Source: Flavobacteriales bacterium (lineage in GTDB: Bacteria > Bacteroidota > Bacteroidia > CAIKAF01). Taken from it: 64,000 nt of DNA. The position numbers were made by a program, and so were the translations under genes. The notes under the pieces are model-generated. The model was not told where the DNA came from. It made no database searches and saw only the letters and a program-made list of their open reading frames with translations. The DNA is taken from assembly GCA_018401695.1 (NCBI GenBank), contig JAGYKD010000003.1:417476-481475 (forward strand). The letters are read 5' to 3'. Positions 28,404 through 31,933 of this stretch are shown piece after piece; position 1 is the first letter of the stretch; each line of letters starts with the position of its first letter.

Positions 28404-28550
28404 GCCTAAAATTAAGGCTTTGTTCTGTTTTTTTGTTTTGCCTTGGGAGTTTGTTTTTCACAGGCACCGGTTTACATCTGCCCTGTAAATTTATTAAGGA
28501 TGGATGGCAGGGGGAGACAGGGAGACGAGGAGCCGGGGAGGGCGGGGAGA

Positions 28551-28618
28551 CGGAGGGAGACGGAGGGAGACGGAGGGAGACGGAGGGAGACGGAGGGAGA
28601 CGGAGGGAGACGGAGGGC
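28551..28618. repeat. 10-bp tandem repeat (cggagggaga)n
   Basis: Six exact units plus a partial one. Confidence 0.95.
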
Positions 28619-28642
28619 ACTCCGTCTTTACCTCATCCCTAA

Positions 28643-28738
28643 GAGACGGGAGGCATCCCGTCTTTACGTTATGGAGAGACGGGAGGCATCCCGTCTTTAC
28701 CTTATGGAGAGACGGGAGGCATCCCGTCTTTACCTTAT
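28643..28738 (+). repeat. 33-bp tandem hairpin repeat AGACGGGAGGCATCCCGTCTTTACsTTATGGAG (about 3 units)
   Basis: Units at 28644, 28677, 28710; each a perfect AGACGGG-AGGCAT-CCCGTCT hairpin. Confidence 0.95.
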
Positions 28739-28764
28739 CATTACATCAGCTCCCAAGGTCTTCC

Positions 28765-28772
28765 TACCTTTG
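28765..28772 (+). promoter_or_regulatory. -7-like element TACCTTTG 4 nt upstream of mnmE ATG
   Basis: TACCTTTGtcctATG. Confidence 0.5.
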
Positions 28773-28776
28773 TCCT

Positions 28777-30156
28777 ATGCACGATTTTTTGCACCAAGAC
28801 ACCATAGTAGCTCTTGCCACTCCCCCCGGAAGCAGTGCCATTGGCCTGTTGAGGATTTCCGGTGCTGCGGCCTTTGACCTGGCCGGGGCCTTTTTTTTGC
28901 CATTAGGTGCGGAAAGCCCCCAAATACCCAACAAACCCCGCAAAGCCCAGTTTGGGCGCTGGATGGACGGAGCAGAAGCTTTGGATGAAGTACTCTTAAC
29001 CACTTTTCCCTCGCCGCATTCCTTTACCGGGGAAGATGTGGTAGAAATCGCCTTTCATGGTTCGCCTTACATCCTTTCCAGAGCCATTCAACAGCTTAGT
29101 GAAGCCGGATGTCGCCCTGCCTTGGCCGGAGAATTTACGCGCCGTGCCTTTGTACGAGGCAAAATGGACCTGACCCAAGCGGAGGCCATTGCCGATTTGA
29201 TTGCCTCTGAATCGGAGGCATCGGCCAAGTTGGCTATGCAACATGTAAAAGGCCATTTTTCGTCCAGAGTAAAGGCCATGCGCGATCAATTGATTGAATT
29301 TGCATCACTGCTGGAATTGGAACTTGATTTTTCCGAAGAAGATGTAGCCTTTGCCGATAGAAACCAACTGAAAAGCCTTTTGGATGCGCTAAAAGCGCAA
29401 ATTGAAGGCCTGTTGAGCAGTTATCAAATGGGAAATGCCATAAAGCACGGCATACCGGTGGCCATTGTAGGTCCTCCAAATGCCGGTAAGAGCACCCTGT
29501 TGAATGCTTTGTTGGAAGACGAGCGCGCCCTGGTAACCGAAATTCCGGGAACCACCCGAGATACCATTGAAGACGATGTGATTATAGAGGGATTAAAATT
29601 TCGATTTATTGATACCGCAGGACTAAGGGAGACCGAGGATAGGGTAGAGCAGTTGGGGATTGAACGGAGCCATCAATCCATTCAAAAAGCCGAATTGGTG
29701 ATTCGTTTGGCCGATGCCCAGCAAGAAACCAACGATGCAGTCGCTGCAGAGGTGGAGACTTGGGCACTAAATACAGGAAAAAGTGTCGAAGATTTTTTGG
29801 TGGTTTGGAATAAAGCCGATTTGGTGCCGGAGCTTAGGACAAGTGAAAAATTGTGGTTGGTTGCTCCGGAAAGCTTGGGCCTGGATCCATTAAAACGCGC
29901 CCTTTTGCAACGGATAAAGGACAAAGGCTACCAATCCGGTGCCTTATACATTACCCAGGCCAGGCACAAAGACGTGTTGACCAAATCGTTGGAAGGTCTA
30001 AAACGTGTATCGGAAGGATTGGAAAGTGGTTTGACCAGCGATTTGGTAGCCTTGGATTTGCGCTATGTATTGCACAGCCTTGGGGAGTTGACGGGGGACA
30101 TCAGCAATGAAGAGGTATTAGGGGCCATTTTTTCGAAGTTTTGCATTGGGAAGTGA
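28777..30156 (+). CDS. mnmE: tRNA uridine-5-carboxymethylaminomethyl(34) synthesis GTPase MnmE
   Basis: MHDFLHQDTIVALATPPGSSAIGLLRISG; GPPNAGKSTLLNAL; ends FSKFCIGK; the ORF's N-terminal 91 aa extension is repeat-encoded and spurious. Confidence 0.97.
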   Translation: MHDFLHQDTIVALATPPGSSAIGLLRISGAAAFDLAGAFFLPLGAESPQIPNKPRKAQFGRWMDGAEALDEVLLTTFPSPHSFTGEDVVEIAFHGSPYILSRAIQQLSEAGCRPALAGEFTRRAFVRGKMDLTQAEAIADLIASESEASAKLAMQHVKGHFSSRVKAMRDQLIEFASLLELELDFSEEDVAFADRNQLKSLLDALKAQIEGLLSSYQMGNAIKHGIPVAIVGPPNAGKSTLLNALLEDERALVTEIPGTTRDTIEDDVIIEGLKFRFIDTAGLRETEDRVEQLGIERSHQSIQKAELVIRLADAQQETNDAVAAEVETWALNTGKSVEDFLVVWNKADLVPELRTSEKLWLVAPESLGLDPLKRALLQRIKDKGYQSGALYITQARHKDVLTKSLEGLKRVSEGLESGLTSDLVALDLRYVLHSLGELTGDISNEEVLGAIFSKFCIGK

Positions 30157-30182
30157 GTGAGATAGCAAATCTTTGATTTGCG

Positions 30183-30419
30183 TTATCGAACGCATCCCGA
30201 GTGTAACCTCGGGATATTTTGTCGGTTAGATGGTTTTATAGAGATTCACAAGGCGATTGCCTTATCGAACGCATCCCGAGTGTAACCTCGGGATATTTTG
30301 TCGGTTAGATGGTTTTATAGAGATTCACAAGGCGATTGCCTTATCGAACGCATCCCGAGTGTAACCTCAAGATTTCTTGTCGTTTAGAGGGTTGTATGGA
30401 GATTCAAAGGGTTCTTGCG
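30183..30419 (+). repeat. 79-bp tandem repeat, about 3 units (third degenerate)
   Basis: ttatcgaacgcatcccgagtgtaacctcgggatattttgtcggttagatggttttatagagattcacaaggcgattgcc at 30183, 30262, 30341. Confidence 0.95.
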
Positions 30420-30528
30420 TGACCGAACCCATCCTGGGTCAAAGATGCGGAATCAAAGATCTTGGCCATAAGCTTCAGTACCCAGCCACGGTATGCATCC
30501 TTGGGATAGTTAAATTTATGGGATGCGG

Positions 30529-30663
30529 CTGTTGATACGTTGTATTTTTAAGGCGAATTAAGGCGCGCCCAAATCGAAAGGCCGGAGTTTACTATTTATA
30601 AATGATGACCTTGAGATTGGGGCGTAACGTAAGGTCGCCGCCAGAATAGCAGCGCGTCAAAAG
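30529..30663 (+). mobile_element. MITE-like element, copy C
   Basis: CTGTTGATACGTTGTATTTTTAAGGCGAATTAAGGCGCG...GCGCGTCAAAAG, homologous to copies A and B. Confidence 0.75.
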
Positions 30664-30780
30664 TCTCCTATTGTGCTTCTACCACAATACTATAGGCCTG
30701 TTTTTACTTCTTAAGTATGATAAAACCCCCATTTTGAATCAATGAAAAGACATCCTCTATTCCCATCTATTGAAAATTGA

Positions 30781-30893
30781 AAGGCTATATCCTTACCTTA
30801 TGAACTTTTTGTCAGGTTACAGCCTGACTTTTAATTTGCTTATGTCAGGGTATAACCTTACTTTTGAATCCGTAATGTCAGGCTATACCCTTA
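30781..30893 (+). promoter_or_regulatory. Phased palindromic operator array upstream of mobile mystery protein A
   Basis: AGGCTATATCCT, AGGTTACAGCCT, AGGGTATAACCT, AGGCTATACCCT starting at 30781, 30813, 30846, 30879 (32/33/33 bp). Confidence 0.75.
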
Positions 30894-30897
30894 CGAT

Positions 30898-31356
30898 ATG
30901 AACAAGAAAAGGCTACAAATAGAACAATTGGAGAATAAATTGAGCGGATTTAATGCAGCTCAAAAAGTGGTTGCTCCTCCAACAGGATGGCTAAAAGCTG
31001 TAAGAGTTTCATTAGGAATGTCACTACAGCAATTGGCCAATAAACTCTCCATCACCAAGCAAAGTGTCCAGGAAATAGAGCTGCGTGAAAAGGAAGGAAC
31101 CATAACACTTAAAAGCCTACGTGAAACGGCCAATGCCTTAGATATGCAATTGGTTTACGGATTGGTGCCCAAAGATGGAAGCATTGAGAAACTCATTGAC
31201 CGAAAGGCCAGGGAATTGGCTACCCGCATTGTCTCCAGAACTTCTAATACCATGAAATTAGAAGATCAGCAAAACACGCAGCAACGGCTCAAAAAAGCCA
31301 TCGAAGAGAGGACTGCTGTAATCAAAAATGAGCTACCAAAGATGCTATGGGATTAG
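30898..31356 (+). CDS. Mobile mystery protein A (HTH/XRE-type regulator)
   Basis: TGWLKAVRVSLGMSLQQLANKLSITKQSVQEIELREKEGTITLKSLRETANALDMQLVYGLVPKDGSIEKLIDRKARELA, as remembered for TIGR02612. Confidence 0.88.
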   Translation: MNKKRLQIEQLENKLSGFNAAQKVVAPPTGWLKAVRVSLGMSLQQLANKLSITKQSVQEIELREKEGTITLKSLRETANALDMQLVYGLVPKDGSIEKLIDRKARELATRIVSRTSNTMKLEDQQNTQQRLKKAIEERTAVIKNELPKMLWD

Positions 31357-31412
31357 AGCTTGACTACATGGATGGCCAAACGCCTATTGATGAAGATGAA
31401 AAACTAGGCTGA
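31347..31412 (+). pseudogene. Truncated mobile mystery protein B (Fic family) N-terminus
   Basis: ATG overlapping the mmpA stop encodes MGLELDYMDGQTPIDEDEKLG then TGA; resembles the usual start of mobile mystery protein B. Confidence 0.7.
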
Positions 31413-31630: not shown

Positions 31631-31933
31631 GATACTAAATTGATTTATACCTCTTAAATATAGTAAAATTCAGATTTGAGTCAAAAAAGGCCTCCCCTTG
31701 CCAAGTGTATCGGGGGAATTAGGGTATACCTTTACTTCTTAGATAATTTAGCTATGTTTTAAACCTATTTGCTAAACCTACTTCCTTGACCTCCAAACCA
31801 AAACCATTATTTAAATTTTAATAACGCCCTCTTACCATCCCAAACCTTAGCTTTGCATGGTATTTTACATTTTTTAATGACTGCTCCTGAACTTCATGTA
31901 CCTACAAAGGTTGTAGTAGATAAATTCATCCGA

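Follow-up and report, generated by a model that had tools for sequence, protein, structure and literature searches.

The window considered here is a stretch of 64,000 nucleotides of a Flavobacteriales genome of 2.99 Mb, taken at its full length. It carries a gene for mobile mystery protein A (mmpA), an array of short inverted repeats in front of it and the remains of its partner gene mmpB behind it. The features are as follows, all on the + strand:

30779..30796, operator O1, GAAAGGCTATATCCTTAC, at -119 from the ATG, one mismatch to GTMANNNTATANNNTKAC
30811..30828, operator O2, GTCAGGTTACAGCCTGAC, at -87 from the ATG, one mismatch to GTMANNNTATANNNTKAC
30835..30838, predicted -33 box TTTG of a Bacteroidota-type promoter, TTTG-N20-TACTTTTG
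30844..30861, operator O3, GTCAGGGTATAACCTTAC, at -54 from the ATG, no mismatch to GTMANNNTATANNNTKAC
30859..30866, predicted -7 box TACTTTTG, which fits TAnnTTTG and overlaps the end of O3
30877..30894, operator O4, GTCAGGCTATACCCTTAC, at -21 from the ATG, no mismatch to GTMANNNTATANNNTKAC
30898..31356, mmpA, mobile mystery protein A, 152 aa, XRE-type helix-turn-helix (HTH), TIGR02612 profile match
31347..31412, mmpB stub (Fic family), whose ATG overlaps the stop of mmpA and opens a frame of 21 codons (MGLELDYMDGQTPIDEDEKLG) closed by a stop

The natural unit of the array is an 18-bp inverted repeat, with consensus GTMAGGnTATAnCCTKAC. With starts at 30779, 30811, 30844 and 30877, the sites are stepped by 32, 33 and 33 bp and separated by spacers of 14-15 bp. 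A preliminary description of this DNA had picked out the core of these sites, AGGnTAYAnCCT. Four exact matches do exist on the + strand, at 30782, 30814, 30847 and 30880, with none other in the 64 kb, where 0.05 would be expected by chance (first-order Markov shuffle); the starts first given were one base low, and the spacing of 32/33/33 bp was correct. The array was said to end 5 nt before the ATG at 30898, when the last 12-mer in fact ends 6 nt before it, and the last 18-mer, O4, stops 3 nt before it. O2 had been taken for a perfect palindrome; this is true of its 6-bp arms, whereas two of its three central pairs are mismatched. When the complete 2.99-Mb genome was searched with the 18-bp pattern GTMAGGNTATANCCTKAC, allowing up to two mismatches, the matches were the four array sites and nothing else, leaving no regulon of further sites of the array type. 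A reversed control pattern also gave four matches genome-wide, so that a few chance matches are to be expected, and none fell outside the array. A half-operator-like sequence, AGGGTATACCTTTAC at 31721-31735, was considered as a fifth site and dropped: it lies outside the 18-bp consensus at up to two mismatches genome-wide, and one-mismatch matches of such a kind are within chance.

With 10.5 bp to the turn, a step of 33 bp amounts to about 3.14 turns, and the outermost sites, 98 bp or 9.3 turns apart, are rotated by about one third of a turn. The original proposal that the sites lie along one face of DNA therefore holds approximately, in that adjacent dimers are nearly, not exactly, on one face, while the array winds slowly as the sites drift round the helix. 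This drift would vanish if the DNA were bent or had a twist close to 11 bp per turn.

The protein encoded by mmpA belongs to the TIGR02612 family (143.5 bits for a cut-off of 122.6, over residues 4-152) and carries an HTH_3 domain. In an AlphaFold2 model (57-sequence alignment, mean pLDDT 80) helices 43-50 and 54-66 are predicted to form the helix-turn-helix, with 54-66 as recognition helix; the model further shows one small beta hairpin and, towards the C terminus, two long helices (96-117 and 127-145). Structural matches to this model are HTH domains only (HigA2, restriction-modification controllers, HipB and DdrO), all with E >0.1, and comparison with solved structures by sequence gave HTH-level or chance similarity only. 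Phage records contained no match to mmpA. The mmpAB pair is common on rhizobial and agrobacterial plasmids, many of them conjugative, including pTiC58 (locus L115). In the open-access literature on mobile mystery proteins we found no description of an operator. The gene is intact in the window, with a dN/dS of 0.115 relative to its counterpart in locus L035, a value that is not proof of selection after the loss of mmpB. It lies directly 3' of mnmE on the same strand (28504-30898), as it does in four relatives of different genera (L036, L082, L110 and L102), the gaps between mnmE and mmpA in these loci and the window ranging from 196 to 741 bp. This suggests that the 3' end of mnmE is a recurrent insertion place for mmpA; the direct repeats looked for there around mmpAB included none resembling an attachment site. 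Short tandem repeats are found just upstream of mnmE (window ~28500-28620), with RRRETEGDGG repeated in one frame.

The partner gene did not survive in the window. The stub is 88% identical to residues 1-26 of the L035 frame (5 residues before its ATG included), and homology to L035 mmpB stops at about 31402; further pieces of mmpB were not found in the window, nor a TIGR02613 match over cut-off in the genome. The locus thus resembles the mobile mystery A/B pair (TIGR02612/TIGR02613) in that mmpA exceeds the curated cut-off and mmpB follows in relatives, and differs from it in that mmpB is deleted here, a stub alone standing directly downstream of mmpA. Among relatives with enough DNA, at least 114 have mmpB after mmpA, intact or recognisable (260 bits against TIGR02613 in L036), and in 87 loci the two genes overlap by 10 nt, from the mmpB start codon to the mmpA stop. 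Two others, L019 and L086, have apparently lost mmpB (a short remnant is left) and retained the operator array, as in the window. With mmpB reduced to a stub, the array would now control an orphan mmpA.

Canonical Fic enzymes have Asp or Glu at a position where MmpB has Asn, its motif H-x-F-x-N-G-N-G-R being present in nearly all of 114 relatives (e.g. L036, 4450-5046); MmpB may carry out a chemistry other than plain AMPylation. Most MmpA and MmpB sequences lack the Fic inhibition motif [ST]xxxE[GN], which is too rare among them to be meaningful. In the literature, the roles of antitoxin and toxin are assigned, by annotation only, to a TIGR02612 protein and the neighbouring Fic gene of a cas locus of Geobacter (PMC3936711), and mll2066 of Mesorhizobium loti, a 'mobile mystery protein b', appears with a value of 4.02 in a table of genes changed by heat shock (PMC3989490), possibly an instance of stress derepression of the mmpAB operon.

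Relatives of mmpA were collected from Bacteroidota, other groups and plasmids, and their upstream regions scanned with GTMANNNTATANNNTKAC. Most loci have sites at about -21, -54 and -87 from the ATG (the last being the equivalent of O2), often also at -120. Chains of at least two sites at 32/33 bp were present in 101 of 124 loci, in a scan where this spacing was imposed. Without imposed spacing, site pairs were 33 bp apart in 90 loci and 32 bp apart in 22, each remaining spacing between 16 and 49 bp being seen in two loci at most, and 780 kb of flanking DNA did not contain, on either strand, a single triple at 32/33 bp. The periodicity is also visible when no motif is used: self-similarity of the 140 nt upstream of 108 non-redundant loci peaks at 33 bp with z = 34, and the 14 proteobacterial plasmid loci alone give the same peak with z = 10.2. 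The letters of the plasmid loci mostly differ. As judged by eye, sites read ATCAG...CTGAT in Rhizobiaceae, pTiC58 included, GTAT...GATAC in Vibrio (L122) and GCTCA... in sphingomonads (L116 and L121), all with the 33-bp step retained, which makes the phase more conserved than the sequence. Some Bacteroidota lineages use a 32-bp step instead, and 43 of the 230 array intervals measure 32 bp. Ten of the 101 array loci have just two sites, so a long array is not essential. The 23 loci that have no chain of the exact motif are mostly more divergent; several display other letters at 32-33 bp, and the starts of some divergent loci were assigned automatically, those of L007, L032 and L034 being probably wrong. 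The preliminary description had made the occurrence of the repeats upstream of other mmpA loci a test of its proposal, which survived: 101 of 124 loci have them, in the same 33-bp phase.

Direct 33-bp repeats beside the gene of a mobile element could be remnants of tandem duplication or of integration, such as iterons or attachment sites, with no regulatory meaning. We consider this scarcely credible. The 18-bp sites are kept and the spacers differ; the left and right arms of the sites undergo compensatory changes; the register to the ATG (-21/-54/-87) is strict in most of the 101 loci, and, as just noted, not all intervals are 33 bp long.

A promoter of the Bacteroidota type is predicted within the array. 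We take the TTTG at 30835 to be its -33 box. The -7 box fits TAnnTTTG, the promoter sequence of Bacteroidetes (PMC6414381). O3 fills the spacer, its last three bases (TAC) being the first three of the -7 box, and O4 is located just downstream of the transcription start, predicted at about 30870-30876, in the leader. Several inverted repeats thus overlap the predicted promoter of mmpA itself, the layout of multi-operator autoregulation, and with O3 between the two boxes and O4 past the start, occupancy should block the promoter. In 56 of the 101 array loci TAnnTTTG begins at operator base 16, mostly at the -54 site, where the final TTAC is nearly fixed (0.89, as against 0.49-0.73 at the other sites); 22 promoters containing TTTG are listed among the array loci. 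In L103, a locus labelled as Chlorobiaceae, the equivalent operator is seen by eye between TTGCAT and TACTAT, 17 bp apart. It might be argued that MmpA binds the array purely to activate, or in an architectural capacity such as plasmid/partition-like nucleoprotein assembly or mobility, with no self-repression: so many phased sites within 115 bp look like sites of assembly, and members of the family are often carried by plasmids and conjugative elements. Yet a -54 site placed within the promoter spacer, the end of which belongs to the -7 box, and a -21 site in the leader fit repression best, and no such array is found elsewhere in the genome. This alternative is, on balance, unlikely.

What binds the sites can be approached through their variation. 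The variable letters are more alike within a locus than between loci (0.75 versus 0.46 at operator position 5, 0.55 versus 0.36 at position 6), and the arms of the palindrome change together (matches of 0.75 at position 5 and 0.53 at position 6, versus 0.46 and 0.36 when shuffled), as expected if a symmetric dimer with a locus-specific preference reads the sites. MmpA columns were then compared with operator bases in 69 loci with less than 85% protein identity. Position 5 is best explained by residue 56, part of the helix predicted to do the recognition: a Ser there is paired with G (0.80), and Gly (0.82), Ala (0.92) and Asn (0.83) with A. Contrasts were also drawn between 34 disjoint pairs of nearest relatives, a simple stand-in for a test on a full tree, the pairs being picked from columns that lie outside the HTH. 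For position 5, residue 56 ranked above all others among the 119 testable columns (r = 0.65, family-wise permutation p = 0.012), Ser having been replaced repeatedly and independently by Gly, Ala or Asn together with a change from G to A in the operator. At position 6 the pooled test is led by residue 59 (Glu with G) and residue 47, the paired test by residue 56. No conclusion was drawn for positions 1, 3 and 7, where the leading columns are scattered.

Because the letters of the sites track the recognition helix of MmpA, MmpA itself is the likely binder of the array. A different, host-encoded regulator of mobile genes might occupy the sites instead, and it is true that binding by MmpA is deduced from sequence. 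We give this very little weight: the letters change with the MmpA recognition helix, are uniform inside a locus and differ between loci, and the phase is kept across phyla while the sequence changes. A host-encoded protein would not change in step with the mmpA allele, hence co-variation counts against it. The initial suggestion that the sites are operators for the HTH product of the gene they precede is thus supported both by the conserved 33-bp phase and by the co-variation of letters and recognition helix. That first description had overlooked the promoter lying among the sites, the remnant of mmpB and the conservation across phyla.

Several known systems offer points of comparison. In hipBA of Escherichia coli, HipB binds four operators (TATCCN8GGATA) cooperatively (PMC3920265). 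As predicted for MmpA, the first of two genes in the operon encodes a small HTH protein of XRE/Cro type, which acts there on several inverted repeats at its own promoter, and HipB is among the structural matches to the MmpA model, with weak E-values and for the HTH part only. The partner, HipA, is however a kinase, not a Fic protein, and the operator is different; in the open-access literature we did not find a report of hipBA spacing conserved across phyla. In hipBST of Legionella, 18-nt operators at even distances, beginning 24 nt ahead of the start codon, overlap the promoter, are conserved genus-wide and are absent elsewhere in the genome (PMC10653801). The mmpA array shares the evenly spaced 18-nt sites on the promoter and their absence elsewhere in the genome, whereas hipBST has three sites with 53-bp gaps, a kinase-type toxin and conservation within one genus. 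The two palindromic boxes of NrdR have spacers of 15-16 bp, and binding needs an integer number of turns (PMC12051234). This is again about three turns centre to centre, the MmpA spacers being 14-15 bp, but NrdR, a Zn-ribbon/ATP-cone protein, represses genes of ribonucleotide reductase and uses two boxes where MmpA arrays have three to five. Finally, the two genes of the phd-doc operon encode a DNA-binding protein that regulates its own expression and a partner with the Fic fold (PMC3920265). The mmpAB pair likewise joins a DNA-binding protein to a Fic-family partner; it differs in that Phd is not an XRE HTH protein and that MmpB is about 200 aa long, with a full Fic-type motif region.

Taken together, the sites are very probably a dedicated MmpA operator array, filled by phased dimers for negative autoregulation, with mmpA an orphan in the present genome. 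An MmpA dimer would read each 18-bp inverted repeat via its XRE-type helix-turn-helix, successive dimers sitting 32-33 bp, about three helical turns, apart. Adjacent dimers would probably touch across the 14-15 bp spacers, or bend DNA cooperatively; it is the fixed phase that leads us to infer cooperativity. A filled array would shut the promoter of mmpA(-mmpB), making a negatively autoregulated HTH-Fic operon. What the sequence itself shows is the sites, their phase and conservation, their overlap with the predicted promoter, the co-variation of helix and operator and the loss of mmpB; binding and promoter repression by MmpA, like a putative antitoxin-like role towards MmpB, are deduced from these.

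A family named for its lack of known function thereby gains a concrete, testable regulatory mechanism, and the array links it with control of a Fic enzyme in the manner of toxin-antitoxin systems. Spacing that is conserved over sequence separates the reading of DNA by the protein from the assembly of the dimers, and the pairing of residue 56 with position 5 is a first recognition rule, testable by single substitutions. Quite tentatively, MmpA might represent a widespread class of autoregulators, in which a geometry of three to four dimers in 33-bp phase, covering the DNA between about -120 and the ATG, is shared by Bacteroidota, loci assigned to Chlorobiota and proteobacteria, while operator letters diversify through substitutions in the recognition helix. 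Such a class would make up a natural library of orthogonal operator/repressor pairs, and orphans such as that of the window could silence incoming mmpAB elements of the same specificity.
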